This document shows positions 9,611 through 38,064 of a stretch of 46,151 bases of DNA, piece after piece. The stretch comes from Deltaproteobacteria bacterium (GTDB lineage Bacteria > Desulfobacterota > RBG-13-43-22). The DNA lies in assembly GCA_016219065.1 (NCBI GenBank), contig JACRCK010000090.1, positions 1-46,151 on the forward strand. The letters are read 5' to 3'. Numbering within the stretch: position 1 is the stretch's first letter; the number at the start of each line of letters is the position of its first letter. The position numbers were made by a program, and so were the translations under genes. The notes beneath the pieces are model-generated. The model did not search any database. It saw only the letters and a program-made list of their open reading frames with translations, and had not been told where the DNA came from.

Positions 9611-9619
9611 TTAAGATCC

Positions 9620-10237: not shown

Positions 10238-10680
10238 CCGTTTCCTCTCGCTTTATAGCCGTTTTCCCGGGCTTACTCCGGGAGCCAATGACTTCAAGCT
10301 GTCTCTTTGCCCCGCATTATACCCTATTCAATTGGATTTACAGCAAAAATCATTGGCGGCCTTGTTTTTTTCAAATTAAGGCGAATGAATTTTTTATCAG
10401 ACCTTCATCCAGAAATCCAACGGAAATTTACCAACCAGCGTTCTTTTAATATCAGGCAATTCGAGTTGACCGCTCCAAACCTACCAGATAAAATAGGGGT
10501 TAACCGGTCAATGGGCGTTAGATTCTTACAACCAATGTTCTGAGAATTTGTCTCTAACAATGCTGTAAGAATCTAAATAAAAAAACTCCGTTCTCTTGGG
10601 TTCTTGTTCAGTGGTTTTTTCCAATCAAAAAAATTTCAAATTTTTTTGGTTAGGCTTTACGCTTAAAAAGGAGAATGCGG
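10238..10680. other. Gene-free AT-rich intergenic region with two inverted repeats
   Basis: These 443 bases lie between divergent genes and contain no convincing coding sequence. They include a perfect 13-bp inverted repeat (10518-10530 and 10564-10576). An AT-only palindrome (10623-10651) lies just upstream of the hemerythrin gene. Promoters for both flanking genes should be here, but no box pair is clear enough to name. Confidence 0.5.
10518..10576. repeat. Perfect 13-bp inverted repeat with 33-base spacer
   Basis: TTAGATTCTTACA (10518-10530) and its exact reverse complement TGTAAGAATCTAA (10564-10576) flank a 33-base spacer. The symmetry is too long for chance in this short region. It could be a terminator stem (A-rich after it), a protein binding site, or the ends of a tiny excised element. 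Confidence 0.7.
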
Positions 10681-19132: not shown

Positions 19133-19397
19133 AAACATCCTCTTCTCCATTAGTGTTAATTCTTTATTACTTCCTTAAATAAAACCGCCAAGAATCCAGG
19201 TCCCAAACGGTTTTTCGGTCATGTCCGTCCCATGATCATCCCCTTTCCTCAGAGATACCCGGTCACCCAGGCTACATTGTTAATCTTAATTATTATTGGA
19301 GTTAAAAAAGCAATTATTATGCCACGCCTATTTATTATTTAACTTATTGAAAATATATAATTTTTTTAAATAAACGTTACAATAAGAATGTTTATTA

Positions 19398-19887: not shown

Positions 19888-20358
19888 ATGATTTCACTTA
19901 AAGTCAACGGCAGGCGTTATCGGGTCGAAGCCGCCTCGGACACCCCGCTTTTATGGGTGCTCCGGGACAGTCTCGGCTTAACCGGAACCAAATTCGGGTG
20001 CGGCCAGTCCATCTGCGGCGCCTGCACCGTTCAGGTAAACGGCGAGGCGATCCGCTCCTGCGTCACGCCCGTCTCAGCCATGGCGGGGAAGGAGATCGTC
20101 ACCATCGAAGGGCTTTCCGCCCGGGGCCGCCATCCGGTACAGCAGGCCTGGATCGCAGACGATGTGCCCCAGTGCGGCTATTGCCATTCGGGACAAATCA
20201 TGGCCGCGGCCGCCCTGCTGGCCAAAAATCCCCAGCCGAACGACGCCGAAATCGATGCCGCCATGTCGGGCATCCTCTGCCGCTGCGGTACCTATCAGCG
20301 TATCCGCCGGGCCATTCACCGGGCCTCCGGGATGATGGTCCAAGGAGGTCGGAAATGA
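19888..20358 (+). CDS. iorA: 2Fe-2S subunit of an isoquinoline 1-oxidoreductase-like molybdoenzyme
   Basis: This 156-residue protein has two 2Fe-2S clusters. The plant-ferredoxin-like one is bound by CGQSICGAC with a following Cys in SCVTP (about residues 39-59). The second, in a helical domain, is bound by QCGYCHSG and [10 protein letters not shown] (about 99-137). This is the small subunit of xanthine-oxidase-family enzymes of the IorAB type, which passes electrons from the Mo site. There is no signal peptide, so it is probably carried out with the Tat-targeted large subunit. GGAGG precedes ATG 19888. Its stop overlaps the large-subunit ATG (ATGA), showing translational coupling. Confidence 0.92.
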
Positions 20359-22520
20359 ACGGGACCGTCAATTTGCACCGCCGTGATTTTTTAAAGACCG
20401 GGCTCGGGCTCGGGGGAGGGCTGGTCCTGGGTTTTCATCTGCCCCTGTCCGGGAGTGAGGGGAAAGCTCTGGCGGCCGCCAAGGAACCCGCATCGCTCAA
20501 CGCCTTCATCCGTATCGGTCGGGACAATCGGGTCACCATTCGGATCAACAAATCGGAGATGGGACAGGGGGTGTACACCTCCCTGCCCATGCTGGTGGCC
20601 GAAGAACTGGAATGCGACTGGTCCCAGGTGCGCGTGGAAGCGGCCCCCGTGGCGGACGTGTACAATCACACCGCTTTCGGGATCCAGATGACCGGGGGCA
20701 GCACCAGCGTGCTCAGCGAATGGGACCGCCTGCGCCGGGTCGGCGCCACGGCCCGGGAAATGCTGATCGCCGCCGCCGCCGACCTCTGGGGGGTGGAAAA
20801 ATCCAGTTGCCGGGCCGAGAAGGGCCTGGTCCTTCATCCCCGGGGCAAGAAACTTTCTTACGGGCAATTGGCCCTGAAAGCCGCCACCCTGCCGGTGCCG
20901 CAGGAGGTCCGGCTCAAGGACCCGTCGGAATTCAAAATCATCGGCCGGCCCACCAGACGCCTGGACACCCCGGCCAAGACAAACGGGTCGGCGGTTTTCG
21001 GCATCGACGTCAGAATCCCGGGGATGCTCACCGCGGTAATCGCCCGACCACCGGTTTTCGGCGGAAAAGTTAAAAGCCTCGACGCGGCCCGGACCAAAGC
21101 CCTGCCGGGAGTCAAGGCGGTAGTGGAAATCGAGGGCGGGGTGGCCGTGGCGGCTGTGGATTTCTGGTCGGCCCAGCGCGGGCGAGAGGCCTTGAAGATC
21201 ACCTGGGACGAAGGCCCCCTGGCCGGGCTTTCAACCGAGGGACTCCGCCGGCAATATGCCGAACTGGCCCGGACGCCGGGGGCGACGGCCCGCAAAGAAA
21301 AGGATCCGGAAAAGACCCTGAGCGAAGCCGCCAAAACGATAACCGCCGAGTACGAAGTCCCTTATCTGGCCCATGCCGCCATGGAACCCCTGAACTGTAC
21401 CGTCGACCTGCGCCCCGGCAGTATGGAAATCTGGACCGGCACCCAGTTTCAGACCGTAGATCGCAACAGCGCCGCCAAGGAGGCCGGGCTCAAGCCCGAA
21501 AAGGTCAAGATCCACACTACTTTTCTGGGCGGCGGTTTCGGCCGGCGGGCCAACCCCCACTCGGATTTCGTGGTCCTGGCCGTGCAGGTCGCCAAGGCGG
21601 TCAAAAAACCGGTCAAGGTGGTCTGGACCCGGGAAGACGATATGCATGGCGGCTATTACCGGCCCATGTACCTGGACCGGCTGACTGCCGGCCTCGATGC
21701 GGCTGGAAACCCGGTGGCCTGGCAGCACACGATCGTCGGACAGTCGATCATGAAAGGCACTGTTTTTGAACAGGGCCTGTCCAAAGAGGGGATCGATGCC
21801 ACCTCCGTGGAAGGGGCGGCGGACCTCCCTTATGCGATCCCGAACCTCCTCGTCAGCCTCCACAGCCCGACCCTCGGCGTGCCGGTCCTGTGGTGGCGCT
21901 CGGTCGGTCATTCGCACACCGCCTTTGTGGTGGAGAGCTTTTTGGATGAAGTCGCTCACGCCGGCGGGCAGGACCCCTATGAATTGCGACGCCGGCTCCT
22001 CGGCCGGCAGCCGCGCCACTTGGCCGTGCTCGATCTGGCCGCCGAGAAGGCGGGCTGGGGGAAAGCACCGGCCCCCGGACGGGCCCGGGGGCTGGCGGTG
22101 CACCAGTCCTTCGGCAGTTTCATCGCCCAGGTGGCCGAAGTGTCCGTATCCCCGGCCGGGGCGGTGCGGGTCCACAAGGTGGTCTGCGCCGTCGACTGCG
22201 GCCGGGTGGTTAACCCCAGCACCATCGAGGCCCAGATGGAAGGAGGCATCGTCTTCGGTCTTTCCGCGGCCCTCCACGGCGCCATCACCTTCCAAAACGG
22301 CCGGGTGGTGCAAGGCAACTTCGACGATTATCCGCTCCTGACCATGGAGGAGATGCCGGCCGTGGAGGTTCACATCCTCCCCAGTACGGAGGGTCCGGGG
22401 GGCATTGGGGAACCGGGTGTGCCCCCCATCGCCCCGGCCGTGGCCAATGCCGTTTTTGCGGCCACCGGGAAAAGGATCAGGAGGCTGCCCATCAGCAGCG
22501 AGGATCTGAAAAAGGGTTAG
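20355..22520 (+). CDS. iorB: Molybdopterin-binding large subunit of an IorB-type oxidoreductase (Tat-exported)
   Basis: This 721-residue protein carries a twin-arginine signal (HRRDFLKTG then a Gly-rich hydrophobic stretch, residues 8-35). Molybdopterin-cytosine-dinucleotide contacts are visible in [39 protein letters not shown] and [13 protein letters not shown]. The Glu of GIGEPGVPP near the C-terminus fits the catalytic base of the family. IorB-type proteins lack an FAD subunit and give electrons to cytochromes or membrane carriers, which fits the neighbouring multihaem cytochrome (inference). Substrates of relatives include N-heterocycles and aldehydes; the one here is unknown. AAGGAGG lies just upstream of the ATG. 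Confidence 0.92.
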
Positions 22521-22679: not shown

Positions 22680-22701
22680 GTATCATTAAGGCTTTGAAAT
22701 T

Positions 22702-22739
22702 TCGATGTTGGACGTTCGATGTTCGATGTTGGACGTTCG
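22702..22739 (+). repeat. Short tandem repeat of TCGATGT(TGGACGT) units
   Basis: The units TCGATGTTGGACGT, TCGATGT and TCGATGTTGGACGT follow one another just after the copy-2 palindrome and upstream of the DUF2277 gene. This is a simple low-complexity intergenic repeat. Confidence 0.6.
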
Positions 22740-23329: not shown

Positions 23330-23509
23330 ATGCCCAGGTTCATCGACATCCCTTTTTCAAAAACCGCCCAATCAGACATTGCCATTCCAATCAAAGTCCG
23401 CCACAGAAGAACCGTCAGGATCTTACCTGAGAAACAGGGAATCGTTTCGCCCGTTCACCGTTTCGTTTTTCCCCCGCTAGGCGGGGATCAGGAGAGGCGC
23501 CTATGCTGA
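23330..23509 (+). CDS. Possible 59-residue peptide overlapping the first response regulator
   Basis: An uninterrupted frame begins MPRFIDIPFSKTAQSDIAIP, continues with the basic KVRHRRTVRI, and ends at a TGA inside ATGCTGA. It therefore overlaps the regulator start by seven bases, the geometry of translational coupling. AAGGGA lies about 6 bases before its ATG, and the frame contains the CCCCGC/GCGGGG hairpin. I recognise no family. It may be a genuine small protein, a leader peptide, or chance; only conservation could decide. Confidence 0.35.
   Translation: MPRFIDIPFSKTAQSDIAIPIKVRHRRTVRILPEKQGIVSPVHRFVFPPLGGDQERRLC
23472..23486 (+). promoter_or_regulatory. GC hairpin just upstream of the first receiver gene
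   Basis: CCCCGC-TAG-GCGGGG gives a perfect 6-bp stem ending 4 bases before the AGGAG ribosome binding site of the regulator at 23503. It could influence translation of that gene. Confidence 0.35.
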
Positions 23510-23874
23510 GAGTACTACTGGTGGAAGACAATCGTACCTTCCGGGAAACATTCAAGCACAGTCTCCGGGAGCATTTCCCGTCCCTGATCATCGAAGAGGC
23601 GACCACCGGGGAAGAAGCCTTACAGATGGTCAACGAGACTCCTCTCCGGCTCATCTTCATGGATATTCACCTGCCCGGCGTAAACGGTTTGAAGTTGACG
23701 CAAAGGATAAAAAAGGATTTTCCGGACATTACGATTGCCGCGCTGACCGGCTACGATCTGCCGGAATACAGACAAGCGGCCTTTCAAAGCGGAGCGGACC
23801 GTTTCTTTGTCAAAGAGTCGTTGCCCTGGGGTGAAATCGGGGCCCTGGTTAAATCGCTGACCCAGTCAGACTGA
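23503..23874 (+). CDS. Single-domain response regulator (receiver only), copy 1
   Basis: This 123-residue protein is a complete CheY-like receiver. The acidic pocket is VEDN (about 7-10), the phospho-acceptor Asp is in FMDIHLPG (about 54), the switch Thr is in ALTGYD, and the Lys is in FFVKES. No DNA-binding or enzymatic output domain follows, so it must act by protein contact or as a phosphate relay. AGGAG precedes ATG 23503. Twelve bases separate it from the downstream binding-protein gene, and the operon continues into a histidine kinase. It resembles the regulator at 31798 (shared PEYRxAAxQSGAxxFF), so the two are probable paralogues. Confidence 0.92.
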   Translation: MLRVLLVEDNRTFRETFKHSLREHFPSLIIEEATTGEEALQMVNETPLRLIFMDIHLPGVNGLKLTQRIKKDFPDITIAALTGYDLPEYRQAAFQSGADRFFVKESLPWGEIGALVKSLTQSD

Positions 23875-23886
23875 AAAAGGAGTGGT

Positions 23887-24900
23887 ATGAAAATCGGCCA
23901 GGGACTTAGGCTCACGGTCTTAGGGACAATGCTCTTGTTGCTGATCGCCGGCTGCGGTCCCAAGGCGCCGCAGCCGCTGGAAAAAATCGTCCTGGGGGCA
24001 GAGACGGTAGCCCATGCCTCACCGGTCTGGATAGCCGAGAATAAGGGCTATTTCCGGGAAGAAGGCCTCAACGTGGAAATAAAGGAATTTGCCTCGGGTC
24101 GGACAGCCCTGCAGACCATGTTGAACATCAAAGGTATCGATCTGGTCACGGCCGCCCAGACGCCGGTGGTTTCCTACAGCTTCAATAGGAACGATTATGC
24201 CATCATCGGCGGCATGGTCTATTCGGATAAAGATGTGCAGTTGCTGGCCCGGCAGGACAAGGGCATCCAGGTACCCGCAGATCTGAAAGGCCGGACCGTG
24301 GGGATAACGGCCCGCTCCTCCGGGCACTTTTTTTTGGGCTTATTCCTGTCCTATTACCAGATGAGCATGGCCGACGTCAAAACGGTCGACCTGGAACCGG
24401 ATCGTTTGGTTCAGGCCTTGATCGAGGGTCAGGTGGACGCCATGGCCACCTGGGAACCGCATATTTACCAGGCCCGGAAGAGCCTGGGGGATAAGGTCCG
24501 TCTTTTACCCGGGGAAGGCCTCTATCGAGAAGACTTTTACTTTATTGCCCGCAAGGATTATCTCCAGGATCATACCGAAACCGTGAAACGGTTTCTCCGG
24601 GCCATTGAAAAAGCAGAGGCCTTTATTATGAATAACCGGGAGGAGACCCTGAAAATCGTCGGGCAAAGGTTGAAAATAGATCAGGAAATATTGAAGGCGA
24701 CCTGGAATAACTTTTTCTTCCGGCTATTTCTGGACCAGCCCATCCTGACTGCTCTGGAAGACGAGGCCAGATGGGCCATACGAAACCGGCTGACGGATGC
24801 CACCCGGGTTCCGAATTACCTCGACTACATCCATCCCGAGGTCCTCAAGGAGGTCAAGCCCGAGGCGGTCAGCCTGGCCGGGGGACAGGAAAGAATATGA
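23887..24900 (+). CDS. Periplasmic binding lipoprotein of the NitT/TauT (NMT1/ThiY) class, copy 1
   Basis: This 337-residue lipoprotein has a type II signal peptide with lipobox LIAGC (about 18-22). The mature part matches class-II substrate-binding proteins of nitrate/sulfonate/pyrimidine-precursor uptake: IVLGAETVAHASPVWIAENK, GYFREEGLNVEI, LKGRTVGITARSSGHFFLG, and VDLEPDRLVQALIEGQVDAM. No ABC permease or ATPase lies near. Its stop overlaps the ATG of a membrane histidine kinase (ATGA), so it probably presents a ligand to that kinase (inference). AAGGAG precedes the start. It has a paralogue at 28156 with the same C-terminal LEDEARW block. Confidence 0.9.
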   Translation: MKIGQGLRLTVLGTMLLLLIAGCGPKAPQPLEKIVLGAETVAHASPVWIAENKGYFREEGLNVEIKEFASGRTALQTMLNIKGIDLVTAAQTPVVSYSFNRNDYAIIGGMVYSDKDVQLLARQDKGIQVPADLKGRTVGITARSSGHFFLGLFLSYYQMSMADVKTVDLEPDRLVQALIEGQVDAMATWEPHIYQARKSLGDKVRLLPGEGLYREDFYFIARKDYLQDHTETVKRFLRAIEKAEAFIMNNREETLKIVGQRLKIDQEILKATWNNFFFRLFLDQPILTALEDEARWAIRNRLTDATRVPNYLDYIHPEVLKEVKPEAVSLAGGQERI

Positions 24901-27900
24901 AAATCAACAGGAAAATAATCCTGGCCGTTTTTGTGCCGGTGTTGTTGGCCATGGCGGTGGGATCGGCCCTGGTCTATTCCTACCTCATCCTGGAAAAGGC
25001 CCAGGCTAATGGGGACAAGGTTCGGCTGATCCGGAACAGTTTTACCGAACTGAACCACCTGGTCTTTTCTTATGTCAATTACCGGGAGGAACGGCCGGAA
25101 CGGCAATTTCTGGCGGAGTACGAAAAATTGACCGGACTCATGGCCGGCACCAGCTTCCGGAATCCTGCCCAGCAGCAACTAGTGGATGATATCCGTCTTA
25201 ACAGCCAGGCCATGAAAGACGCCTTTCTCCGACTGGTCTCCAACCCCGACTTTGCCCAGCCCACCGCCGGCAATCAGGCGCTTGATGAAAGTGCGGAACG
25301 GTTGGTGGGGCAACTCCTGATCAGGTCCCATAAAGCCGATAGCATCGCCTCTACCTTACGCAATCTGGTCGATCAGGACATCCGGAAGACCCAAACCAGG
25401 ACCCTGACTTTTATCGCTCTGGTTTTGATTCTGACCGCCCTGGTTTTCAGCCTGATTCTTTTCCGAACCGGACGGGGCATCATCTCTTCCCTGACCAAGC
25501 TCCACCGGGGGACCGAAGTCATCGGTTCCGGTAATCTCGACTTCTTCATTGCCGAAGATAAAAACGATGAAATCGGTGAACTGGCTCAGGCCTTCAACCG
25601 GATGACCGCCCGTTTGAAGGAAGTGACCGCCTCCAAGGCCGACCTGGAGCGGGAGATGGCCGAACGGGAGAAAGCGGAAACGGAGATTCGGGCCTCCCGA
25701 AAATTCCTGGAAATTGCCAACCGGCACACCGACCTCGACGGGCTGCTCCAGGGTTTCGTCAAGGAAATAAAGGAATTCACCGGGTGTGCGGCGGTCGGGA
25801 TTCGCCTGTTGGACCTGGAGGGCAACATCCCTTATCTGGCCTACCAGGGCTTCAGCCGCCGGTTTTATGAAACCGAAAGCCCCCTCTCGATCAAAACGGA
25901 TCACTGCATGTGCATCAATGTCGTCCAGGGGACTACCGACCCCGGCCTTTCTTTTTATACCGAGGGCGGCTCGTTCTATATGAACGGGACCACCCGGTTC
26001 CTGGCCACGGTCTCGGAAGCGGATAAGGGCCAGACCCGAAATGTCTGCAACCAGACGGGCTATGAATCGGTGGCCCTGATCCCCATCCGGAGCGGACCCG
26101 ATATCCGAGGGCTGATTCACCTGGCCGACCCGCAAGAAAACAGGGTTCCCCTGGACCGGGTAACCTTATTGGAACGGGCGGCTGCGGTCCTGGGCAACGG
26201 CATCCAGAGGATCCTGGCCGAGGCCCTGCTGAAAAAGGCCCATGCTGAACTGGAAATCAAGGTGGCGGAGCGCACGGAGGAGTTGACGGCCGAGATCAGG
26301 CAACGCCAACTGATCGAAGAGGCCCTGCGGGAATCGGAAGGGGAACTCCGTTATCTCTCTTCCCAGATCCTGGTGGCCCAGGAAAAAGAAAGAAAAGAGA
26401 TCGCCGAAGACCTGCATGACCATACCTGGCAAATCCTGAATACCATCAAGCTCGACATCGACCAGTTGCTGTCTCCGGAAATGACCGCTAACCGGCCGGC
26501 GGCCCGGCAGCTCGGCAAGAGAATTATCGCCAATATCCGGGCGGCCGTGGAAAGGATCCGCACCATGCAGGGGGACCTCTGGCCCCCGGTGATGGACGAT
26601 ATCGGTCTGCTGGCCACGATCAACTGGTACGGCCGGGAATTCGAGCAGGGCCACCCCGGGATGACCGTGGTAAAACAGATCGAAGTGACGGAAGAGGACG
26701 TCCCCGATCACCTCAAGATCGTCATCTACCGGATAATGCAGGAGACCTTGAAGAATGCCGCCCAACATAGCAGCGCGGATCGGATCCGACTCTCTTTGAA
26801 AAAAGACGGTCCCCGGATTGAATGCGCGATCGCCGACAACGGCCAGGGGTTCGATCTGGAACGAATCCTTTACCGTGCCGGACCCTGGGCGGGTTTCGGG
26901 CTCATCGGCTTGAAAGAGCGGACCGAACAATCGGGAGGAACCTTGGATATCCGCTCCGGTGAGGGGAGCGGGACGATCCTTCAGGCCTCCTGGTCGTTGA
27001 ATGGAACTGAGCAAAAAACTCCGGACCGCCGACCGATCTCATCCATCTTAAAACAGGAAGAGCCTTTCCGGATGGTAACGGAAACCATCTCCGACTGGGT
27101 CTATTCGATGAGTGTGAAACCGAACGGGCAGTTTATCTGCGATTGGATCACTCCCGGATTTGCCCTGGTGACCGGCCACAGCGCGGATGCGGATTTGACC
27201 GAGATCGTTCACCCCGAGGATCAGGCCGTTCTGGAAGAACGTTTCCGTCATATCCAGGCCTTGCAACCTTATGCCGGCGAATATCGGATTGTCACCAAAA
27301 ACGGCGAGGCCTGCTGGATTCGGGATTCGATCAATCCGGTGGCCGACCCCCTCCATCCGGGGACCATCCGGGTGGTCGGAGCCGCGCAAAACATCACCGG
27401 GCATAAACGGATGGAGGCGGAGAGAATCCGACAGAAGGTGATTCTCGAAGGCATCAATAGCATCTTTCAGGAAGCCCTTGTTTCTCATACGGATGAAGAC
27501 TTGGGACGAGTTTGTTTGACAGTTGCGGAGGAGATATCTCAAAGCCGGTTCGGATTTATCGACGAAATAGGTCCGGACGGTTTGCTTCACTCCATCGCCA
27601 TCAGCAACCCCGGCTGGGAGCAATGCACCCTGGTCGATAAGAGCGGCCATCTCAGGCTGCCGAGTAATCTCAAAATCCATGGACTCTATGGCCGTGTCCT
27701 GCTGGACGGGAAAAGTCTGCTGACCAATACGCCGGCGGAGCATCCCGACAGCATCGGCACGCCTCCCGGTCATCCGCCCCTAAAAGCCTTCCTGGGCGTC
27801 CCCTTGATCCGCGACGAGAGGACCATCGGCCTGATCGCCGTGGGCAATCGGGAGGGCGGGTATGGGCCGAGTGAGCTGGAAGCGTTGGAAGCCCTGGCGC

Positions 27901-28106
27901 CGGCAATCGTTCAAGCCTTCTCGCACCGGCGTTCGGAGACGGAGATTCAACGACAGGTGGAGGAATTGACGCGCTTTAACCGTGCGGCCGTGGATCGCGA
28001 GCTGCGCATGATTGAATTAAAAAAACAGATCAACGCGTTGTGCGCCCAGGCCGGCCAACCCCGGCGCTATCCCCTCGAAATGGACGCAGGAAGAGAGGAA
28101 AGTTAA
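24897..28106 (+). CDS. Membrane histidine kinase: HAMP-GAF-HisKA_3-HATPase-PAS-GAF, copy 1
   Basis: This 1069-residue protein has TM1 (about 7-29), a periplasmic helical region (30-165), TM2 (about 168-190), and HAMP (190-245, DEIGELAQAFNRM). A GAF domain with several Cys follows (265-440; HCMCINV, NVCNQTG). The NarL-type dimerisation domain has the phospho-His in EDLHDHTW (about 506), and the ATPase spans 600-705 (NAAQHS, DNGQGFDL, GLIGLKERTEQSGG). Unusually, a PAS domain (720-835), a second GAF (845-1010) and a coiled coil lie after the ATPase. The start codon overlaps the stop of the binding-protein gene. It probably senses the liganded lipoprotein in the periplasm (inference) and phosphorylates a nearby receiver. 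Confidence 0.92.
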   Translation: MKINRKIILAVFVPVLLAMAVGSALVYSYLILEKAQANGDKVRLIRNSFTELNHLVFSYVNYREERPERQFLAEYEKLTGLMAGTSFRNPAQQQLVDDIRLNSQAMKDAFLRLVSNPDFAQPTAGNQALDESAERLVGQLLIRSHKADSIASTLRNLVDQDIRKTQTRTLTFIALVLILTALVFSLILFRTGRGIISSLTKLHRGTEVIGSGNLDFFIAEDKNDEIGELAQAFNRMTARLKEVTASKADLEREMAEREKAETEIRASRKFLEIANRHTDLDGLLQGFVKEIKEFTGCAAVGIRLLDLEGNIPYLAYQGFSRRFYETESPLSIKTDHCMCINVVQGTTDPGLSFYTEGGSFYMNGTTRFLATVSEADKGQTRNVCNQTGYESVALIPIRSGPDIRGLIHLADPQENRVPLDRVTLLERAAAVLGNGIQRILAEALLKKAHAELEIKVAERTEELTAEIRQRQLIEEALRESEGELRYLSSQILVAQEKERKEIAEDLHDHTWQILNTIKLDIDQLLSPEMTANRPAARQLGKRIIANIRAAVERIRTMQGDLWPPVMDDIGLLATINWYGREFEQGHPGMTVVKQIEVTEEDVPDHLKIVIYRIMQETLKNAAQHSSADRIRLSLKKDGPRIECAIADNGQGFDLERILYRAGPWAGFGLIGLKERTEQSGGTLDIRSGEGSGTILQASWSLNGTEQKTPDRRPISSILKQEEPFRMVTETISDWVYSMSVKPNGQFICDWITPGFALVTGHSADADLTEIVHPEDQAVLEERFRHIQALQPYAGEYRIVTKNGEACWIRDSINPVADPLHPGTIRVVGAAQNITGHKRMEAERIRQKVILEGINSIFQEALVSHTDEDLGRVCLTVAEEISQSRFGFIDEIGPDGLLHSIAISNPGWEQCTLVDKSGHLRLPSNLKIHGLYGRVLLDGKSLLTNTPAEHPDSIGTPPGHPPLKAFLGVPLIRDERTIGLIAVGNREGGYGPSELEALEALAPAIVQAFSHRRSETEIQRQVEELTRFNRAAVDRELRMIELKKQINALCAQAGQPRRYPLEMDAGREES

Positions 28107-28155
28107 TGGTTGCATGGATAGGTTTGTCGACCAGAGCCCTTGACCGAGAAAATCA

Positions 28156-29172
28156 ATGAGGGCGCTGAACCATAGGAACCGCCTGAATATTTCTGCGATC
28201 CTGTTTTTGGCCGCCTTCACGGTGGCCATGGCTTCCGGGTCTTGTTCTCGGGGAAAGGATTCAGGGAAAGTGGAATCAATTACCATCGGAACACTTCCCT
28301 ATGAAGCCAATGCCTTGATCTACATTGCGGACGAGCAGAAATTTTTCAAAGCCAACGGTTTGGAGGTTGCCATAAAAAACTATGAAACGGGTTTGGCGGC
28401 CACCACGGCCGTGACCCAAGGGGCAGTGGATATCGCCGCTTGTGCTGAATTTATCAGTGTCGGGAAGGCCTTCCAAAAAGAGGACATTTTCATTATCGCC
28501 ACCATTGCCAAAAATCTGAATGAACTGCTCATTGGTCGGATCGACAAGGGCATCAAGACGGTTGCCGATCTGAGCGGGAAAAAGATAGGCGTTCCACGGA
28601 AAACAATTGCGGAATTCTATCTCGGTCGATTTCTGGACCTGCACGGGTTGAGTACCCAAGATATAACCCTGGTTGACCTGCCGCCATCCCGGTTGCAGGA
28701 GGCTTTGGTCCAAAATGAGGTCGATGCGGTTATCGCCTGGCAGCCCTGGGCGAAACAAATAGAAAATCGATTGGCGCAGAACAAAGTGGTCTGGCCGGCC
28801 CAAAGCAGCCAGTTATTGTATTGGAATATGGTTGTAAAAGATGTCCGGTCGGCCAAACAAGACCGGCTCATAAAAAAGGTCTTGCGTTCCCTTCTTCAAG
28901 CCGAAAAATATCTGGTAGGCCACCCGGAGGAAGCGAAAGACATCGTCCGGACACGACTAAGGTACGACAATGCTTATCTGGAGGAAGTCTGGCCGAAACA
29001 GCAGTTCTTTCTCTCCCTGGACCAGTCACTCATCGCGGCCTTGGAAGACGAAGCACGGTGGATGATACAAAACAAATTGACCACGGAGAAAAAGGTGCCG
29101 GATTTTTTGGAGTACATCTATCTGGAAGGTTTGAAAGCGGTAAAGCCTGAAGCTGTGAGCATTATTCGCTGA
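28156..29172 (+). CDS. Periplasmic binding lipoprotein of the NitT/TauT class, copy 2
   Basis: This 338-residue protein has a lipoprotein-type signal (lipobox ASGSC, about 26-30). The fold matches copy 1: ITIGTLPYEANALIYIADEQ, FFKANGLEVAI, LSGKKIGVPRKTIAEFYLGR, and VDLPPSRLQEALVQNEVDAV followed by IAWQPWAKQIE. Both copies share the C-terminal LEDEARW...NKLT/NRLT and VKPEAVS blocks. Identity is modest, so the ligands may differ. It starts 49 bases after kinase copy 1 and ends 11 bases before kinase copy 2, pairing it with the latter. No transport subunits are adjacent. A weak GAGAA precedes the ATG. Confidence 0.9.
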   Translation: MRALNHRNRLNISAILFLAAFTVAMASGSCSRGKDSGKVESITIGTLPYEANALIYIADEQKFFKANGLEVAIKNYETGLAATTAVTQGAVDIAACAEFISVGKAFQKEDIFIIATIAKNLNELLIGRIDKGIKTVADLSGKKIGVPRKTIAEFYLGRFLDLHGLSTQDITLVDLPPSRLQEALVQNEVDAVIAWQPWAKQIENRLAQNKVVWPAQSSQLLYWNMVVKDVRSAKQDRLIKKVLRSLLQAEKYLVGHPEEAKDIVRTRLRYDNAYLEEVWPKQQFFLSLDQSLIAALEDEARWMIQNKLTTEKKVPDFLEYIYLEGLKAVKPEAVSIIR

Positions 29173-29183
29173 GAGAAAGAATT

Positions 29184-31583
29184 ATGAGACTTAAGACGCA
29201 ATTCATCATCGCTTTGCTCCTCTTCGGCTTTATCCTGATCGTCATAGCGGGGTCGGCGATCATAACGAATATCGAGATGGAGAAAGCCCGACGCCAAGGG
29301 AAAATAGCCGATGCCATCGTCCGAGGTGCAAGCGAGTTAAACTACCTTTCCAATGATTACCTGATTTACCGAGAAGATCCGCAACTGAAGCGCTGGCGGT
29401 CCGGGTTTGCCAACTTTTCCAAACAGGTAGCCGGTTTGCGGGCCGACCGCCCCGAACAGCAGGCGCTCATCGCCAATATACAGGCCGGTCAAAAGCAGTT
29501 AAAAGAAGTATTCGACAGCCTGGCCTCCGCTTCGGTAAGCCTGACCCGGGATCCGGGCGCCGCTCTCGTTTCGCCCCTTTTTCAGGTCTCCTGGAGCCGA
29601 ATGGCAGTTCAATGTCAGGGACTGGTAGCGGATGCTGCGCGATTATCCTATTTGTTCCAGCAAATGAGGGACCAGCTCACCGAGACCAGAACACGGCTGA
29701 TATATTTTCTGTTGGGTTTGTTTGGTCTGTTTCTAGTGAGCGGCTATTGGCTCACTCACCAACGGATACTGAAATCAATGGCGAAATTAGAGGCGGGTGC
29801 GGCGGTCATCGGTTCCGGAAACCTTGATTTTGTCTTTGAAGAAATGAAAAATGACGAGATCGGCGAGTTAGCCCGCGCCTTCAATCGCATGACTACCGAC
29901 TTGAAGGCCGTAACGGCGTCCAAGACCGACTTGGAGAGGGAGATGGCCGAGCGTCGGCAGGCCGAGGAGGAGTTGCGCCGGCAACGCGAGTGGCTCCGGG
30001 TCACCTTGACCAGCATTGGCGACGCCGTGCTGACTACGGACGCCGCGGGCCGGATCACCTTCCTCAACCCCATAGCCCAGGCCTTGACCCAATGGCCGCT
30101 GGAAGAAGCCGCAGGGCAACCGACTTCGAGCGTCTTCCGCATCATCAATGAAAAGACCAACGAGCCGGCCGAAGATATCGTTGGGCGGGTGCTGCGGGAA
30201 GGTTTGGTCGTTACCCTGGCCAACCACACGGCCCTGATCGACCGCGAGGGACGGGTGATCCCCATCGAGGACAGCGCCGCGCCGATTCTGAATGCCGACG
30301 GCAACGTCACCGGCGTGGTCCTCGTTTTCCATGACGTAACAGAAAAACGCCGGGCCCAACTGGCCCTGGCCGAGAGCGAAAAACACTATCGAACCCTCTT
30401 CGAGACCATGACCGAAGGTTTCGCCCTCCACGAAATCATTTGCGACGACCTGGGTCGGCCCTGCGATTACCGTTTCCTCCAGGTGAACCCGGCCTTTGAA
30501 CGTCTGACCGGGCTTAGGGCCGTCGATCTCGTAGGGCGAACCCTTTATGAGGCCCTGCCTCAGGCGGAGAGCCTCTGGGTGGAACGCTACGGAGCAGTGG
30601 CCTTGACCGGCCGGTCGGCCCACTTCGACCAGTGGAGCGAGGCCCTGGGCCGGCACTTTGAGGTCATCGCCTTTCAGACCGAGCCCGGATTTTTCGGGGT
30701 GGTCTTTCGCGACGTTTCCGCGCGCAGGCAGGCCGAGGAGGCCCTGCACGCCTCCCGCCGGGCGGCGCTCAACCTCTTGGAAGACGCCGAGGAGGCCCGC
30801 CGGGAGGTCGAACGGATCAACGCCGATCTGGAGTTGCGGGTCCGGGAGCGAACAGCGGAATTATCGGCCGTTGTCGACCGGCTGCAAGATGAGATTGATC
30901 AGCGTCAACACCTGGAAGACACACTGCGCCAGTCCGAGCAACGAGTCCGGTTTTTTGCCTCCCAGTGTCTGACGGCCCAGGAGAAAGAAAGAAGACGGGT
31001 GGCCGGGGAGCTGCACGACAGCATCGTGGCCTCCCTGGCCGCTATCAAGATCGGCCTGGAGAAGGCCCGGGACGAAAGGGAGGCGGGCCGGATCATTCCG
31101 GAATCGTTTACAAATCTGATCATAGCCGTGCAGCAAACCATCGTGGACGTCCGCCGGATTATGGCCGATTTACGCCCCTCTCTGCTGGACGACCTGGGTC
31201 TCATCGCCGCTCTTAACTGGTTTTGCCGGGAGTTCCAGAAAACCTATCCGTCCATCCGGATTGAGAGCCGGATCGGCCTGGCGGAAGGAGATCTGCCGGA
31301 TTCGCTGAAAACACCGATTTTCCGCCTGTCCCAGGAAGCGCTGAACAATATCGCCAAACATAGCCGGGCCGGATTGGTATGTCTCTCTTTACTAAAAGAA
31401 TCCGATCGGCTACAATTAATAGTTAAGGACAACGGCCGGGGATTCAATCCGGACCAGAGCCTGAAAGGTTTAGGGTTGTCGACCATGCGGGAACGGGCCG
31501 AGCTTTCGGGCGGCGCCTTTGCCATTACCTCCGGTCAGGGAGGAACCATCGTTCGCGCCTCCTGGCCTTTAGGCAGCGGCTGA
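29184..31583 (+). CDS. Membrane histidine kinase: HAMP-PAS-PAS-HisKA_3-HATPase, copy 2
   Basis: This 799-residue protein has TM1 (about 7-29), a periplasmic helical domain (30-170), TM2 (about 172-192), and HAMP (192-245, DEIGELARAFNRM). PAS domains occupy 267-390 and 395-515, followed by a coiled coil. The NarL-type kinase core has the phospho-His in GELHDSIV (about 610) and the ATPase at 700-797 (NIAKHS, DNGRGFNP, GLGLSTMRERAELSGG). The HAMP and adjoining coil (VTASKTDLEREMAE) are nearly the same as in copy 1, so these kinases are paralogues whose signalling domains diverged. GAGAGAAAG precedes the start. The binding lipoprotein 11 bases upstream is its likely partner. Confidence 0.92.
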   Translation: MRLKTQFIIALLLFGFILIVIAGSAIITNIEMEKARRQGKIADAIVRGASELNYLSNDYLIYREDPQLKRWRSGFANFSKQVAGLRADRPEQQALIANIQAGQKQLKEVFDSLASASVSLTRDPGAALVSPLFQVSWSRMAVQCQGLVADAARLSYLFQQMRDQLTETRTRLIYFLLGLFGLFLVSGYWLTHQRILKSMAKLEAGAAVIGSGNLDFVFEEMKNDEIGELARAFNRMTTDLKAVTASKTDLEREMAERRQAEEELRRQREWLRVTLTSIGDAVLTTDAAGRITFLNPIAQALTQWPLEEAAGQPTSSVFRIINEKTNEPAEDIVGRVLREGLVVTLANHTALIDREGRVIPIEDSAAPILNADGNVTGVVLVFHDVTEKRRAQLALAESEKHYRTLFETMTEGFALHEIICDDLGRPCDYRFLQVNPAFERLTGLRAVDLVGRTLYEALPQAESLWVERYGAVALTGRSAHFDQWSEALGRHFEVIAFQTEPGFFGVVFRDVSARRQAEEALHASRRAALNLLEDAEEARREVERINADLELRVRERTAELSAVVDRLQDEIDQRQHLEDTLRQSEQRVRFFASQCLTAQEKERRRVAGELHDSIVASLAAIKIGLEKARDEREAGRIIPESFTNLIIAVQQTIVDVRRIMADLRPSLLDDLGLIAALNWFCREFQKTYPSIRIESRIGLAEGDLPDSLKTPIFRLSQEALNNIAKHSRAGLVCLSLLKESDRLQLIVKDNGRGFNPDQSLKGLGLSTMRERAELSGGAFAITSGQGGTIVRASWPLGSG

Positions 31584-31630
31584 TAAGGGAAATTTGACCG
31601 CGCCCTTTCCCGGCATCAATAATGATATGT

Positions 31631-31760
31631 TCGCAAAAAGTCGAAAACCCGTCATTGCAAGCGGAGCGAAGCAATCCCCCCTTGCAGCGACTAGCCGATT
31701 CCAGGGGATTGCTTCGTCGCTGCACTCCTCGCAATGACTCCCTGTAAACTTTTTGCGAGA
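31631..31760. repeat. REP-like long inverted repeat, copy 3 (opposite orientation)
   Basis: The element starts TTCGCAAAAAGTCG, contains GTCATTGCAAGCGGAGC, and ends with GACTCCCTGTAAACTTTTTG. The arm containing GACGAAGCAATC is on the right here, the reverse of copies 1 and 2. It separates kinase copy 2 from the second receiver gene. Confidence 0.85.
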
Positions 31761-31797
31761 CCATCAATAATTATTATATGTAATTGAAGGAACCGGC

Positions 31798-32190
31798 ATG
31801 ATCCAGACCGATACCGAAAAGATAAACCAAATCAATATATTGATCGTCGAAGATAACGCTTTTTTCCGGCAATCTTTTAAGGAGCACCTGCACCTGACCG
31901 GACCCAATGTCCAGGAGGCGGTGGACGGCCCGGAGACCCTGGAAAAAGTGAAAACCTTCCCTCCTCACCTGATCTTCATGGATATCCGCCTGCCCGGAGA
32001 GAGCGGCCTTTCCCTGACGAAGAAAATCAAGGCCCGACATCCTGAAATCCAGATCGTCATTGTCACCAGTTACGACAACCCGGAATACCGGGAGGCGGCC
32101 CGGCAAAGCGGGGCCAGCCATTTTTTTTCCAAGGACGCTCTGAATTTCGAGGAGATTACGGCCCTGATTAACGCCGTCAGTCCGAGATAA
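31798..32190 (+). CDS. Single-domain response regulator (receiver only), copy 2
   Basis: This 130-residue CheY-like receiver has the acidic pair in VEDN (about 18-21), the phospho-acceptor Asp in FMDIRLPG (about 61), the switch Thr/Ser in VTSYD, and the Lys in FFSKDA. It lacks an output domain. It shares many residues with the regulator at 23503 (LIFMDI-LPG, PEYR-AA-QSGA). GAAGGAA precedes the ATG. It is separated from kinase copy 2 by a 214-base gap containing a REP-like repeat and may have its own promoter. Downstream lies the relic of a further kinase. Confidence 0.92.
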   Translation: MIQTDTEKINQINILIVEDNAFFRQSFKEHLHLTGPNVQEAVDGPETLEKVKTFPPHLIFMDIRLPGESGLSLTKKIKARHPEIQIVIVTSYDNPEYREAARQSGASHFFSKDALNFEEITALINAVSPR

Positions 32191-32495: not shown

Positions 32496-35400
32496 ATGGC
32501 CAAGGAAAAACCGCGTCCCGCCAAATCATTTCCTGAGCGCAAATCCGCGACAGCCCTCGTAAAAAGTCGTTTAACCCCTCAGGCAGCAGAAGAGAACCCG
32601 GCCTTCCCTATCATCGGCCTGGGTGCTTCCGCCGGCGGACTGGAGGCTCTGGAACGGTTTTTTGCCTGGGTACCTCTCGATATCGGCATGGCCTTCATCA
32701 TCGTCCCCCATCTCGATCCGGATCATGCCAGCCTGATGACCGAGCTTTTACGACGGGTTACCCAACTGGAGGTCAGCGAGGCGCAAGATGGAGTGCAGGT
32801 CAAACCCAACAGGGTGTACGTGATCCCTCCCAATAAAGACCTGTCCCTGTACCAAAGGACCATCCATCTGGAAACACCCGCCGGGCCCCGGGGATTACGG
32901 ATGCCCATTAACTCTTTTTTCCGCTCCCTGGCCGAAGACCAGGGCGAACTGGCGACGGCCATCATTCTTTCCGGGACCGGAACGGACGGCACCCAGGGCC
33001 TCCGGGCCATCCATGGCGCCGGGGGCATGGTCATGGTTCAAACGCCCGACTCGGCCAAGTACCCGGGAATGCCCCATAATGCGATACAAACCGGCCTGGT
33101 TGACTATGTCCTTCCTCCGGAAAAGATGCCCTCCCAACTGGCGCGTTACGGGCAGCGATCCGGCCGGCGATCCGGGCTTACGGCGGCGAAGGAAGTCCAT
33201 TTACAGAAAATCCTGGCCCTGGTCCGATCCCGGACGGGCCACGATTTTTCCCTGTATAAAAAAACGACCATTCAACGCCGGATCGAGAGGCGGATGAGCC
33301 TCCATGGGATTGAAGACCTTTCCGATTACCAACGTTATCTGCAGGAAAACCCGGGAGAGAGCCGGTTACTCTTCAACGATTTCCTCATCGGGGTAACCCA
33401 ATTCTTCCGGGACCCGGAAGCCTTTGAAGCGTTGGAAAAGGTCTTGCGGAAAACCATCGAGGACGGGCCGGAGGTCCGCACCTTTCGGGCCTGGATACCC
33501 GGGTGCGGAACCGGAGAGGAAGCCTATTCGGTGGCCATGGTCATCCGGGAAGGGCTGGACGAAGTTAAACGAAATTGGAAGGTCCAAATCTTTGGCACAG
33601 ACATCGATGACGAGGGAATCAACCGGGCCCGCAGCGGAATCTATTCGAATAATATCGTCGAGGATGTGCCGCCCGACCGCTTGAAGCGGTTTTTTATAAA
33701 ACTGGAAGATGATTCCTACCGGGTCAAAAAAGAGATCCGGGAGATGATCGTTTTCGCCGTCCAGGACCTGGCCAAGGACCCCCCCTTCACGAAACTGGAC
33801 CTCCTCAGTTGCCGAAACCTTCTGATCTACTTTGAAGCGGAGTTACAGAGCAGGCTTTTGCCCCGCTTCCATTACAGCCTGCGACCCGGCGGGATCCTCT
33901 TTCTCGGAGCTTCGGAAACGATAGGTAAATTTACCGACCTCTTTGCGGTCAGCGACCGGAAATGGAAAATTTACCGGACCAAGAAAACCCTCTCGCCGGT
34001 TCGGGAAGAAATATGGGGGAGCGCCTCCTGGGTCGCCCAGGTCCCCTCCCGGTTCGGAGAAGGGGGAGCGCTTAAGAAAGCGGGGGAAATCGACATCATT
34101 CCCGATGTGCGACGAAAGCTCCTCGAAACTTTTGTCCCTCCGTCGGCGGTGGTGAATGCGCAAGGGGAGCTCCTTTACCTCCATGGCCCTACCGGGAAAT
34201 ATCTGGAGCTGCCCCGCGGACATCCGAATTGGAGCATTTTCGACATGGCCCGCGACGGCCTGCAGTTTGAACTGCGTTCCGGGATCCGCTTCGTCCTGAC
34301 CGAGTTGAAAGAGCGACGCTATGTAAACCTGAAGGTCAAGACCACCCAGGGCTACCAACCGGTCAACCTGACCATCAAGCCCTTTGCCACGGCTCCAGAA
34401 AATCAGGGGCTGGCGCTGGTCACCTTCGAAGAGATCGTCGAAGAAGAAAAGCGACCGCCGGATGGAAAAAGCCGGCCCCCTGAAGGGGAGACGGAAAAGC
34501 GGTCCCAGGTGTTGGAACAGGAACTCGCCTATACCCGGGAATCCCTCGAGGGCACGATTGAAGAACTGCAGACCGCGAACGAGGAGGCCCGGTCGGCGAA
34601 CGAAGAAATGCAATCGACCAATGAAGAGCTGCAAAGCGCCAATGAAGAACTGGAGACCTCCCGGGAGGAACTGCAATCCATGAACGAGGAGCTGCTGACC
34701 CTCAACACGGAGCTGCAGGAGAAAATCGAGCTGCTCTCCCAAGCCGAGAAGGATGTGAAGATCCTCCTCGACAATACCCGGATCGGGATCATTTTCCTGG
34801 ACAACCAACTCGGCATCCAACGGTTTACCTCCGAAGCCACGAAGATATTCAGTCTCATTCCGGGGGACGTCGGGCGGCCCCTCCAACATATTCGTTCCAA
34901 CCTCGACGCCGACAACATCGAGGAGGACACTCAAGAGGTGCTGGAGACCCTTCAAAGCCGGGAAAAAGAGGTCCGCTCCCAGGACGGTACCTGGTACCTG
35001 ATGCGGATCATTCCAGACCGGCCTACCGAGAAAGGCCTTGCCGGACTGGTTCTTTCCTTTACCGATATTACGGAAATGAAGCATTCCGCCGAGGCCGTCA
35101 ACCAATTGAAGCTCGCCTATCAGGCGGCCCACGCCTTTTCGGAAAGCATTGTGGAAACGGTTCGGGAGCCTCTGCTGGTCCTCGACGAAGAGCTGCGGGT
35201 GGTTTCCGCCAACCGGTCTTTTTACCGGACCTTTCTCGTTTCCAGGGAAGAAACCGAAGGGCGGCTCATCTACGACCTCGGCCACCAGCAATGGGACCTT
35301 CCGGATTTAAAACGACTATTGGGGGAGATTTTGACTAAAAACAGCGAATTCGACGACTTCCTCGTTGAGCAGGAAGGTGCGGGCCTTGCGCGGAGGCGCC

Positions 35401-35510
35401 TGATGCTCAATGCCCGGAAGGTGGTCCAGCGCGAAGGCGGCGAAAAAGGGCTGATCCTGCTGGCGATCGAAGATGTTACGAATAACAGCGCTCATCACGG
35501 AGACGATTAG
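32496..35510 (+). CDS. CheB-CheR fusion with coiled coil and two PAS domains, no kinase domain
   Basis: This 1004-residue cytoplasmic protein starts with a CheB methylesterase domain (about 37-225; GASAGG, PHLDPDH, SGTGTDGTQG carrying the Ser-His-Asp set). A CheR methyltransferase follows (about 235-490; TQFFRDPEAF, WIPGCGTGEEAYSVAM, CRNLLIYFE). Then come a PAS-like region, a long coiled coil (about 665-750, repeated ANEE/TNEE/SREE), and two PAS domains (about 755-860 and 875-1000). CheB lacks a receiver domain. Related large fusions often end in a histidine kinase; here that part is a separate gene 43 bases downstream. Its targets are unknown, since no chemoreceptor is nearby. Confidence 0.92.
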   Translation: MAKEKPRPAKSFPERKSATALVKSRLTPQAAEENPAFPIIGLGASAGGLEALERFFAWVPLDIGMAFIIVPHLDPDHASLMTELLRRVTQLEVSEAQDGVQVKPNRVYVIPPNKDLSLYQRTIHLETPAGPRGLRMPINSFFRSLAEDQGELATAIILSGTGTDGTQGLRAIHGAGGMVMVQTPDSAKYPGMPHNAIQTGLVDYVLPPEKMPSQLARYGQRSGRRSGLTAAKEVHLQKILALVRSRTGHDFSLYKKTTIQRRIERRMSLHGIEDLSDYQRYLQENPGESRLLFNDFLIGVTQFFRDPEAFEALEKVLRKTIEDGPEVRTFRAWIPGCGTGEEAYSVAMVIREGLDEVKRNWKVQIFGTDIDDEGINRARSGIYSNNIVEDVPPDRLKRFFIKLEDDSYRVKKEIREMIVFAVQDLAKDPPFTKLDLLSCRNLLIYFEAELQSRLLPRFHYSLRPGGILFLGASETIGKFTDLFAVSDRKWKIYRTKKTLSPVREEIWGSASWVAQVPSRFGEGGALKKAGEIDIIPDVRRKLLETFVPPSAVVNAQGELLYLHGPTGKYLELPRGHPNWSIFDMARDGLQFELRSGIRFVLTELKERRYVNLKVKTTQGYQPVNLTIKPFATAPENQGLALVTFEEIVEEEKRPPDGKSRPPEGETEKRSQVLEQELAYTRESLEGTIEELQTANEEARSANEEMQSTNEELQSANEELETSREELQSMNEELLTLNTELQEKIELLSQAEKDVKILLDNTRIGIIFLDNQLGIQRFTSEATKIFSLIPGDVGRPLQHIRSNLDADNIEEDTQEVLETLQSREKEVRSQDGTWYLMRIIPDRPTEKGLAGLVLSFTDITEMKHSAEAVNQLKLAYQAAHAFSESIVETVREPLLVLDEELRVVSANRSFYRTFLVSREETEGRLIYDLGHQQWDLPDLKRLLGEILTKNSEFDDFLVEQEGAGLARRRLMLNARKVVQREGGEKGLILLAIEDVTNNSAHHGDD

Positions 35511-35553
35511 CTTTTCCAAGACCGGAGCCGATTCAGACCAGAGGGGGGAAAAG

Positions 35554-38064
35554 ATGAAAAGAAAAGGCGAGCCTCCGAAAGATTCCCTGCGAAAAAAGGC
35601 CGAAACCTTCCTGGCCCGGCAGCCTGAACCGCCAGCCGATCCACCGGTGGAAAGCCTTCAACAACTGATCCACGAACTGCAGGTTCACCAGATTGAACTG
35701 GACATGCAAAATGAAGAGCTCCGTCGGCAGCAGGCCGAAAGCGATGAGGCCAAAGACCGCTACCGGGATCTATTCGATTTCGCCCCCCTCGGCTATTTCA
35801 CCTTTGATCCCGACGGAAGAATTGCGGAGGTAAACCTGACCGGCGCCGGCCTGCTCGACCTTCCGAGAACCCGGCTGATCGGTCGATCGTTTTTCTTGTT
35901 TGTGGAAAGGGACTTTCTGCCCCTGTTTCGCGCCCATTTGCAGAAAGTCTTCGCCACCCCGGTCCGCCAAACGTGCGAGTTGAAAATCAGACCCCGGCCG
36001 GAGAAATCAGCGCTCTATGTGGCGATCGAAAGCATCGCCGCCGGGCCGGGCGAAGCGATCCGGTGCCGCTCGGCCGTCATCGACGTCAGCGCCCGCAAAC
36101 GGCTGGAGGAGGACCTGCGGGAATACGAAAGCGCAATCGAGAATTCCCAGGACATCATAGCCGTAGTCGATGAAAATTACACCTACGTAATGGCCAACAA
36201 CCGGTTCCTTCAATACCAGGGCTTAACCCGGCCTCAGGTGCTCGGAAAAACGATCCGGGAAATTGTCGGCCGGGACGTCTTTGAAACCCTGATCCAGCCG
36301 AACGTCGATGCCTGCCTGCGGGGTAAGACCGTCCAATATGAAATGAAGCGCACGTATCCGGAACGGGGAGAAAGACATTTACTGGTAAAATATTTTCCGG
36401 TGGAGACCCCCAAGGGCATCACCCGGATCATAAGTGTTACCGAAGACATTACCGACCGGAAGCGGGCCGACAACCTGGCTCAGGCGAGGTTTCGGATATT
36501 GGCAGCGGGCCAGGCCCCTGCCATTTCCGTGCCTGATATTCTGCAGGGGACCCTGGATGAGATCGAAGCGCTGACGGGCAGCGCCATCGGGTTTTATCAT
36601 TTTCTGGAAGCCGCCCACGAAACAATTTCCTTGCAGACCTGGTCGACCCATACGCTGCAAAACCTCTGCACCGCCGAAGGCGTGGGCCGCCATTATCCCA
36701 TCTCCCAGGCCGGTGTCTGGGTGGATGCCGTGCGGGAGCGGCGCCCGGTCATCCATAACGACCTGGCCTCGCTGCCGCACCGCCGGGGGCTGCCCCCGGG
36801 ACATGCGCCGGTCATCCGGGAAATGGTCGTCCCTATCTTGCGAGGCGGTCAGGTCGTGGCCGTCATTGGCGTGGGGAACAAATCGTTCCCCTATGATCCG
36901 GCCGATGTCGAGATCGCTGCGCTGCTGGGCGACCTTTCCTGGGAAATCGTCGAGCGCCGGCGGGCCGAGTTGGCGCTGCAGGAAGTTCACGAGCGGGCGG
37001 CCTGGCTGGCGCGGTTTCCCGAGGAGAATTCCGGTCCCGTGCTGCGGGTAGACGTCGCGGGAAACGTTCTCTATTGCAATCCGGCTTCCATGGAAATGCA
37101 CGGCTGGACCTGCCAGGTTGGTCAACCGCTGCCCGACTTCCTCCACCCCCATTTCGGCCCGGCCTTGTCCAAAGGACAGGAGACGCACCTGGACCTGAAA
37201 GTAGGCCAAAGGTCTTATACCGTGACGTTCACCCCCTTCTCGGAAGAAGGCTACGTCAACATCTACGGGCTCGACACTTCCGAACGCAACCGGACCGTGG
37301 AGACCTTGCGAAAAAAAACTTTGGAACTTCAGCACCTGACCGATACCCTGGAACTGCGGGTCATCGACCGGGCCAGTGCCCTGACCCAGGCGAATGAATC
37401 GCTGCGGCAAATCTCCGTAAAACTCCTCTCGGCCCAGGAAGACGAGCGTAAGAGAATTGCCGGTGAAATTCATGATACCCTCGGGTCAACCCTGAGCGCC
37501 GCCAAATTCAAGGCCGGAGATCTGCTCCAGTGCGGGCAGACCCCCAACGAGGCCAGGGAATCGTTGAGCGCGATTATCCCTTTGATTCAGGAAAGCATCG
37601 ATGAATGCCGGAGGATCCAGATGGATTTACGACCTCCCATGCTGGACGATCTGGGTCTGCTGCCTACGCTCTCCTGGTTCTGCCGGAGGTTTCAGACGAT
37701 CTATTCGGGGATACGGATCGAACAGGAGGTGGGCCTCGAGGAAAGGGATCTGCCCGTTCCCCTTAAAATCGTTGTTTTCAGGGTGACTCAGGAAGCCCTG
37801 AACAACATCGCCAAATACAGTCAGGCGGACCGGGTCCTCCTGGTTTTACGCAAAAGAGGCAATCGGCTGGAACTCGTTATCCAGGATAACGGCCAGGGCT
37901 TTCCCTCCGGGAACCCCGCTTCTCCCCCGGACCTCCGAAAAGGACTGGGACTGACGAGCATGCAGGAACGAATCGAGTTTTCGGGCGGGTCCTTTGCCCT
38001 CCGTTCGACGGTGGGAAAGGGAACGACTGTTCGGGCCTCCTGGCCCCTTCCGGAAAAAGGTTAA
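35554..38064 (+). CDS. Soluble PAS-PAS-GAF-PAS histidine kinase (NarL type)
   Basis: This 836-residue protein has no signal or membrane segment. After a coiled N-terminus come PAS 1 (about 70-190), PAS 2 (about 190-310), a GAF domain (about 312-475) and PAS 3 (about 480-590). The HisKA_3 domain has the phospho-His in GEIHDTLG (about 638), and the ATPase is at 730-835 (NIAKYS, DNGQGFPSG, GLGLTSMQERIEFSGG). ATG 35554 is chosen because GAGGGGGGAA lies just upstream and the N-terminal coil starts there; an in-frame start at 35473 would overlap the previous gene. It probably takes signals with the CheB-CheR protein upstream (inference). Confidence 0.92.
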   Translation: MKRKGEPPKDSLRKKAETFLARQPEPPADPPVESLQQLIHELQVHQIELDMQNEELRRQQAESDEAKDRYRDLFDFAPLGYFTFDPDGRIAEVNLTGAGLLDLPRTRLIGRSFFLFVERDFLPLFRAHLQKVFATPVRQTCELKIRPRPEKSALYVAIESIAAGPGEAIRCRSAVIDVSARKRLEEDLREYESAIENSQDIIAVVDENYTYVMANNRFLQYQGLTRPQVLGKTIREIVGRDVFETLIQPNVDACLRGKTVQYEMKRTYPERGERHLLVKYFPVETPKGITRIISVTEDITDRKRADNLAQARFRILAAGQAPAISVPDILQGTLDEIEALTGSAIGFYHFLEAAHETISLQTWSTHTLQNLCTAEGVGRHYPISQAGVWVDAVRERRPVIHNDLASLPHRRGLPPGHAPVIREMVVPILRGGQVVAVIGVGNKSFPYDPADVEIAALLGDLSWEIVERRRAELALQEVHERAAWLARFPEENSGPVLRVDVAGNVLYCNPASMEMHGWTCQVGQPLPDFLHPHFGPALSKGQETHLDLKVGQRSYTVTFTPFSEEGYVNIYGLDTSERNRTVETLRKKTLELQHLTDTLELRVIDRASALTQANESLRQISVKLLSAQEDERKRIAGEIHDTLGSTLSAAKFKAGDLLQCGQTPNEARESLSAIIPLIQESIDECRRIQMDLRPPMLDDLGLLPTLSWFCRRFQTIYSGIRIEQEVGLEERDLPVPLKIVVFRVTQEALNNIAKYSQADRVLLVLRKRGNRLELVIQDNGQGFPSGNPASPPDLRKGLGLTSMQERIEFSGGSFALRSTVGKGTTVRASWPLPEKG

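Follow-up and report, generated by a model that had tools for sequence, protein, structure and literature searches.

Periplasmic binding proteins are known to act on kinases of several kinds: TorT, a type-I binding protein, feeds the helical-bundle sensor of the hybrid kinase TorS; XylFII is a sugar-type substrate-binding protein (SBP) that serves the LytS-type kinase LytS; and AioX, a PhnD-like SBP, acts with a DNA-binding regulator, AioR. NMT1 (NitT/TauT-class) binding proteins normally serve SsuBC/TauBC-like ABC importers, and are annotated by default as parts of nitrate, sulfonate or taurine importers. Kinases driven by SBPs are an accepted class (PMC9602780, PMC5908839, PMC11113362), with only about ten characterised examples in the literature (PMC9602780). 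In the LytS sensor, helices H3/H4 form the docking site of XylFII (PMC9769921), the SBP, kinase and regulator of the arsenite system AioX-AioS-AioR are encoded together and have co-evolved (PMC5908839), and the outer-membrane lipoprotein QseG activates the four-helix-bundle kinase QseE (PMC12691602; PDB 9m08).

The locus described here, which lies in a stretch of 46,151 nucleotides analysed as a whole (the window), resembles each of these systems in part. Like XylFII-LytS, the xylose sensor of Clostridium beijerinckii (5xsj/5xsd), it matches a binding protein to a four-helix-bundle kinase sensor, but the SBP is of NMT1/TauA type and the kinases carry HAMP and HisKA_3 or HisKA outputs and are accompanied by single-domain receivers; we detected no sequence relation between the two systems and no XylFII-type entry among the lipoprotein matches listed. 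It shares with AioX-AioS-AioR a dedicated periplasmic binding protein encoded with a kinase and a regulator, but the SBP family of that system is another and its ligand class is known, whereas here an NMT1 clade is combined with receiver-only regulators. With QseG-QseE it has in common a lipoprotein and a four-helix-bundle kinase, although QseG is not a two-lobed ligand-binding protein. TorT-TorS was not among the matches listed in sequence or fold searches. TauA and SsuA resemble the lipoproteins in fold and, up to roughly position 270, in sequence, but their importer partners are absent here. The features of the locus are as follows.

23503..23874, + strand: single-domain receiver 1 (Pfam Response_reg, 1.1e-21)
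23887..24900, + strand: NMT1-class sensory lipoprotein 1 (PF09084, 3.9e-29, 102.5 bits; clean lipobox LIAGC)
24690..24897, + strand: C-terminal signature of lipoprotein 1 (about residues 270-333; alignment A1)
24897..28106, + strand: sensor kinase 1 (TM, periplasmic four-helix bundle, TM, HAMP, HisKA_3/HATPase_c, PAS, GAF)
24897..25454, + strand: TM1, private periplasmic helical bundle and TM2 of kinase 1 (bundle profile A3, 6.2e-57)
28156..29172, + strand: NMT1-class sensory lipoprotein 2 (PF09084, 3.3e-27, 96.2 bits; weak lipobox SGSC)
29184..31583, + strand: sensor kinase 2 (TM, four-helix bundle, TM, HAMP, PAS, PAS, HisKA_3, HATPase_c)
29184..29741, + strand: TM1, bundle and TM2 of kinase 2, the segment that was modelled (bundle profile A3, 3.1e-52)
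31798..32190, + strand: single-domain receiver 2 (Pfam Response_reg, 5.6e-25)
32496-35510, + strand: CheB-CheR-PAS fusion, directly 3' of receiver 2 (Pfam)
35473-38064, + strand: HisKA_3 kinase (Pfam)
38251-40683, + strand: hybrid kinase with receiver (Pfam)

ORF coordinates and Pfam matches bear out the six-gene order of the sequence-only reading, from receiver 1 to receiver 2, with all six genes on the + strand; the stop of lipoprotein 1 overlaps the start of kinase 1 by four bases (ATGA) and 11 bases separate lipoprotein 2 from kinase 2, also as that reading had it. The hallmarks of two-component signalling are present in translations and Pfam matches (H-boxes ELHDS and DLHDH, HATPase, and receivers with a phospho-acceptor Asp, motif FMDI); the HisKA_3 match of kinase 1 falls under the Pfam cut-off, with its H-box intact. 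The cytoplasmic layouts of the kinases differ, with PAS and GAF after the catalytic core in kinase 1 and two PAS domains before it in kinase 2. Both regulators consist of Response_reg with no other Pfam domain. Among the fetched loci, the closest to receiver 1 are single-domain receivers at L042 5128-5511 and L170 4682-5056 that adjoin bundle kinases, suggesting that a lone receiver belongs to some of these modules. The same-strand signalling run continues past 32190 up to 40683, and its genes from 32496 onward are possible downstream partners of the lipoprotein-kinase module.

We found that both lipoproteins score far above the curated PF09084 (NMT1/THI5-like) cut-off of 20.5 bits, and that the AlphaFold model of lipoprotein 1 (pLDDT 91) adopts a two-lobed TauA/SsuA-like fold with TauA 6ssy as its best PDB match (Foldseek 1.1e-21). 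Its C-terminal segment carries a signature, W..F....LDQ..L..LEDEARWAI...VPNYLDYI...VKPEAVS, that is diagnostic of the sensor-linked clade and ordered in the model, whereas the profile matches of solved relatives end at or before about position 280, a weak DszB match excepted. We considered and rejected the segment as an extra domain: comparison with full-length TauA/SsuA structures shows it to be the normal C-terminal part with clade-specific sequence. Among signature-bearing members it is somewhat more conserved than the remainder of the protein. A lipobox-like motif occurs in only 37 of 88 such members, so lipid anchoring does not define the clade.

Profile A1, built from 21 relatives picked by sequence alone, was searched over 395 genomes of the phylum and gave bimodal scores: matches reaching the signature had E-values of 3e-64 or better and the others 1e-44 or worse, with signature-less matches mostly ending near position 270-280. 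A separate collection of named genomes, searched with the narrower alignment A2, supplied all examples from other phyla; signature-bearing proteins adjoin sensors in Rugamonas apoptosis, Colwellia polaris, a SAR324 bacterium, a Desulfobulbaceae MAG and a Rhodopirellula MAG, and a Gammaproteobacteria MAG has one where the contig ends. The SBP gene leads into a membrane sensor gene in 82 of 89 distinct signature-bearing proteins, 72 lying directly 5' of a bundle-HAMP sensor (median gap 10 nt) and 10 reaching one through tandem lipoprotein genes; of the remainder, 4 are at contig ends and 3 are solitary. In a tree that included 41 importer-type NMT1 proteins, all 88 near-full-length signature members formed one clade, with a single state change.

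Lipoprotein and bundle also occur together. Across the 395 genomes the signature lipoprotein was found in 29 and the bundle in 29, with 28 in common (Fisher p 1e-40, a statistic that ignores phylogeny); since bundle profile A3 describes the periplasmic part of sensors found beside signature lipoproteins, remote bundle relatives lacking a lipoprotein could be missed in this count. In G009, the one genome with a lipoprotein only, a fragmentary bundle matches at E 1e-8; in G362, the one with a bundle only, a truncated NMT1 gene of 116 aa (C206, L315 1144-1494) stops six bases short of the bundle sensor at L315 1501, where the receptor may have been lost naturally. The ratio of lipoproteins to sensors varies between loci: three lipoproteins precede one kinase in G004, and at L249 a second bundle kinase (7901-10273) with no lipoprotein of its own lies 5' of a lipoprotein-sensor pair, giving two sensors to one lipoprotein. 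An open frame of 1312 aa in the relative G003, which contains one TAG, was examined as a lipoprotein-kinase fusion and rejected; two genes are present there, and the kinase start lies a few bases past the lipoprotein stop.

The sensor bundle itself matched no Pfam family above cut-off, leaving these sensors currently without a recognised input domain. Its weak Pfam matches do not place it in 4HB_MCP_1, CHASE3 or TarH: 4HB_MCP_1 matched 5 of 34 members (best E 1e-4), and CHASE3 scored 18.6 bits against kinase 2 for a cut-off of 28. AlphaFold predicted the kinase 2 bundle with a pLDDT of 90.3 and helices at 3-62, 65-83, 90-122 and 131-185. Its best PDB matches, among them 4k0d, 9m08 (QseE-QseG) and 5xsj (LytS-XylFII), included Adeh_2942, NarQ and Tar as well as QseE with its lipoprotein QseG and LytS with XylFII, the bundle thus resembling two sensors each solved with an accessory protein. 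The likeness to LytS 5xsj (TM 0.59 by query and 0.87 by target, 11% identity, Foldseek E 0.05) is one of resemblance, not membership. The 63 bundle sensors carry HAMP (59), HATPase_c (50), HisKA (36), HisKA_3 (10), receivers (12), GGDEF (1) and HD (1), so that, judged by domain content, the input is constant and the output varied.

Bundle and lipoprotein have diverged together. Distances between bundles correlated with those between lipoprotein cores at r = 0.71 (67 pairs; maximum of 2000 permutations 0.13), above the 0.64 between the bundle and the HAMP domain of its own polypeptide. The partial correlation was 0.57 with HAMP removed, compared to 0.17 for HAMP against the lipoprotein core with the bundle removed, and the two trees had 25 of 64 splits in common (shuffled maximum 2). 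Part of this co-divergence can be co-inheritance of neighbouring genes, and column covariation between bundle and lipoprotein (Neff about 51) singled out no individual contacts.

Given the near-obligate gene pairing, the single clade, the lack of importer genes, co-occurrence, co-divergence and the predicted folds, we consider it very likely that each lipoprotein serves in the periplasm as the dedicated ligand receptor of the kinase directly 3' of it and is not part of an importer. A ligand would close the two-lobed lipoprotein, which would then dock on the periplasmic four-helix bundle of its kinase; TM2 and HAMP would relay the signal, of either sign, across the membrane to the HisKA_3 core, and phosphate would pass to the two lone receivers and perhaps also to the downstream kinases and the CheB-CheR protein. 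Adjacency may nevertheless mislead, as Pseudomonas aeruginosa SBPs encoded beside AgtS and AruS failed to activate those kinases (PMC11113362).

The ligands of the two lipoproteins are probably different, as the pocket-like loops read SSGHFF in lipoprotein 1 versus TIAEFY in lipoprotein 2, and TWEPH versus AWQPW. Taurine is unlikely for either because the contacts of TauA with it, Q30, E106 and T132 (PMC6906117), are not kept, aligning in the profile alignment with E/L, Q/L and S/I in lipoproteins 1/2. Both cassettes could in addition signal to the same receivers, which would then read a ratio of two ligands, an extension of the receptor model that does not compete with it. The two pairs and the two related receivers (48% identity) in one run, together with the differing loops, are consistent with such a comparator, but we think it unlikely given that the pairs are separate in origin and that a relative with both kinases carries lipoprotein 1 only.

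A second alternative keeps the partnership and dispenses with the small molecule: the lipoproteins would act on the kinases as structural or envelope-state activators, as QseG does on QseE. The resemblance of the bundle to QseE (9m08) and the somewhat better conservation of the C-terminal segment point in this direction, but the two-lobed binding-protein fold is intact, and we regard a ligand-free role as improbable.

Less probable still is that the lipoproteins are orphan parts of an importer whose ABC permease is encoded elsewhere, with the kinases as chance neighbours or indirect sensors of uptake. Their NMT1 class and nearest folds (TauA/SsuA) are those of importer proteins, and 71 of 78 signature-less NMT1 proteins have ABC or permease genes within 2.5 kb. 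However, no ABC permease or ATPase lies within 4 kb of any of the 89 signature-bearing proteins, whose pairing with one bundle type is near-obligate across the 395 genomes, and, as the sequence-only reading had noted for this locus, the window ORFs examined include none. The source genome (4.88 Mb, 93.7% complete, 399 contigs) has 11 NMT1 matches and 11 permease-domain matches, and only one locus (C49) combines NMT1, an SsuC-like permease and an ATPase; the sole SsuC/TauC-type permease identified there thus has an SBP and ATPase of its own. Adjoining genes and sequence led us to regard the other permeases as peptide, phosphate, tungstate, polyamine or sugar types, leaving no unattached matching permease among the 11, although one may be missed at 93.7% completeness in 399 contigs. 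Six relatives of the window lipoproteins in this genome (two here, two on C19, and one each on C208 and C105) adjoin sensors. The importer counts and the near-obligate pairing thus sustain the proposal of the sequence-only reading that the lipoproteins are dedicated kinase receptors, while the trees contradict its further claim of a duplicated module.

That a single lipoprotein-kinase cassette was duplicated locally in tandem is scarcely credible. The two cassettes are homologous in both halves (34% identity between lipoproteins, 35% between the N-terminal sensor-HAMP parts and 40% between the kinase cores), but each of the two trees places them in separate deep clades, and topologies constrained to unite the two groups are rejected (AU p 7e-124 for lipoproteins, 5e-4 for bundles). 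In both trees module 1 clusters with L040, L044 (12136) and L045, and module 2 with L032, L044 (7526), L170, L240 and L241; L170, L240 and L241 come from other families of the phylum. This indicates two old paralogous pairs that have become co-located. In G003 (L040), counterparts of kinase 1 (72% identity) and kinase 2 (75%) are direct neighbours, without an intervening lipoprotein gene, and the locus has a counterpart of lipoprotein 1 only; lipoprotein 2 was therefore either lost in G003 or gained in the source genome. A solitary lipoprotein elsewhere in G003 (L043) is 49% identical to lipoprotein 2.

Our literature searches of open-licence papers turned up none that describes this NMT1 clade in company with kinases, and a closed NMT1 clade that is never near an importer and has a private bundle across many bacterial families appears to be new. 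For the wider idea that an importer-type lineage left transport and, with its own bundle, became an exchangeable two-piece input on histidine kinases, hybrid kinases and, singly, diguanylate cyclase and HD proteins, we find belief and doubt evenly balanced; tandem SBPs feeding one sensor, and one SBP feeding two kinases, would make such sensing combinatorial. The signature that separates the sensory clade would correct default importer annotations of NMT1 proteins, and it delimits a set of SBP-sensor pairs in which ligands can be sought.

Several neighbouring features of the window were also recorded. A TRAP-type DctP binding protein is encoded at 6505-7602 (1.5e-53); no TRAP permease matched among the neighbouring ORFs scanned, so DctP is possibly another importer-free binding protein. 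A large multiheme cytochrome (- strand) is followed by a molybdopterin oxidoreductase pair with 2Fe-2S and MoCoBD subunits just 5' of the cassette (window 16373-19150 and 19888-22520). A dispersed repeat built on TGTTCGATGTTGGACGTTCGATGTT occupies window 22701-22739; allowing up to 2 mismatches, it had no matches in 18 other relatives, nor did a reversed control pattern match, and it was found 117 times in the source genome and 90 times in the one genome of the same genus. This repeat causes spurious ORF starts, such as RCWTFDVRCW.
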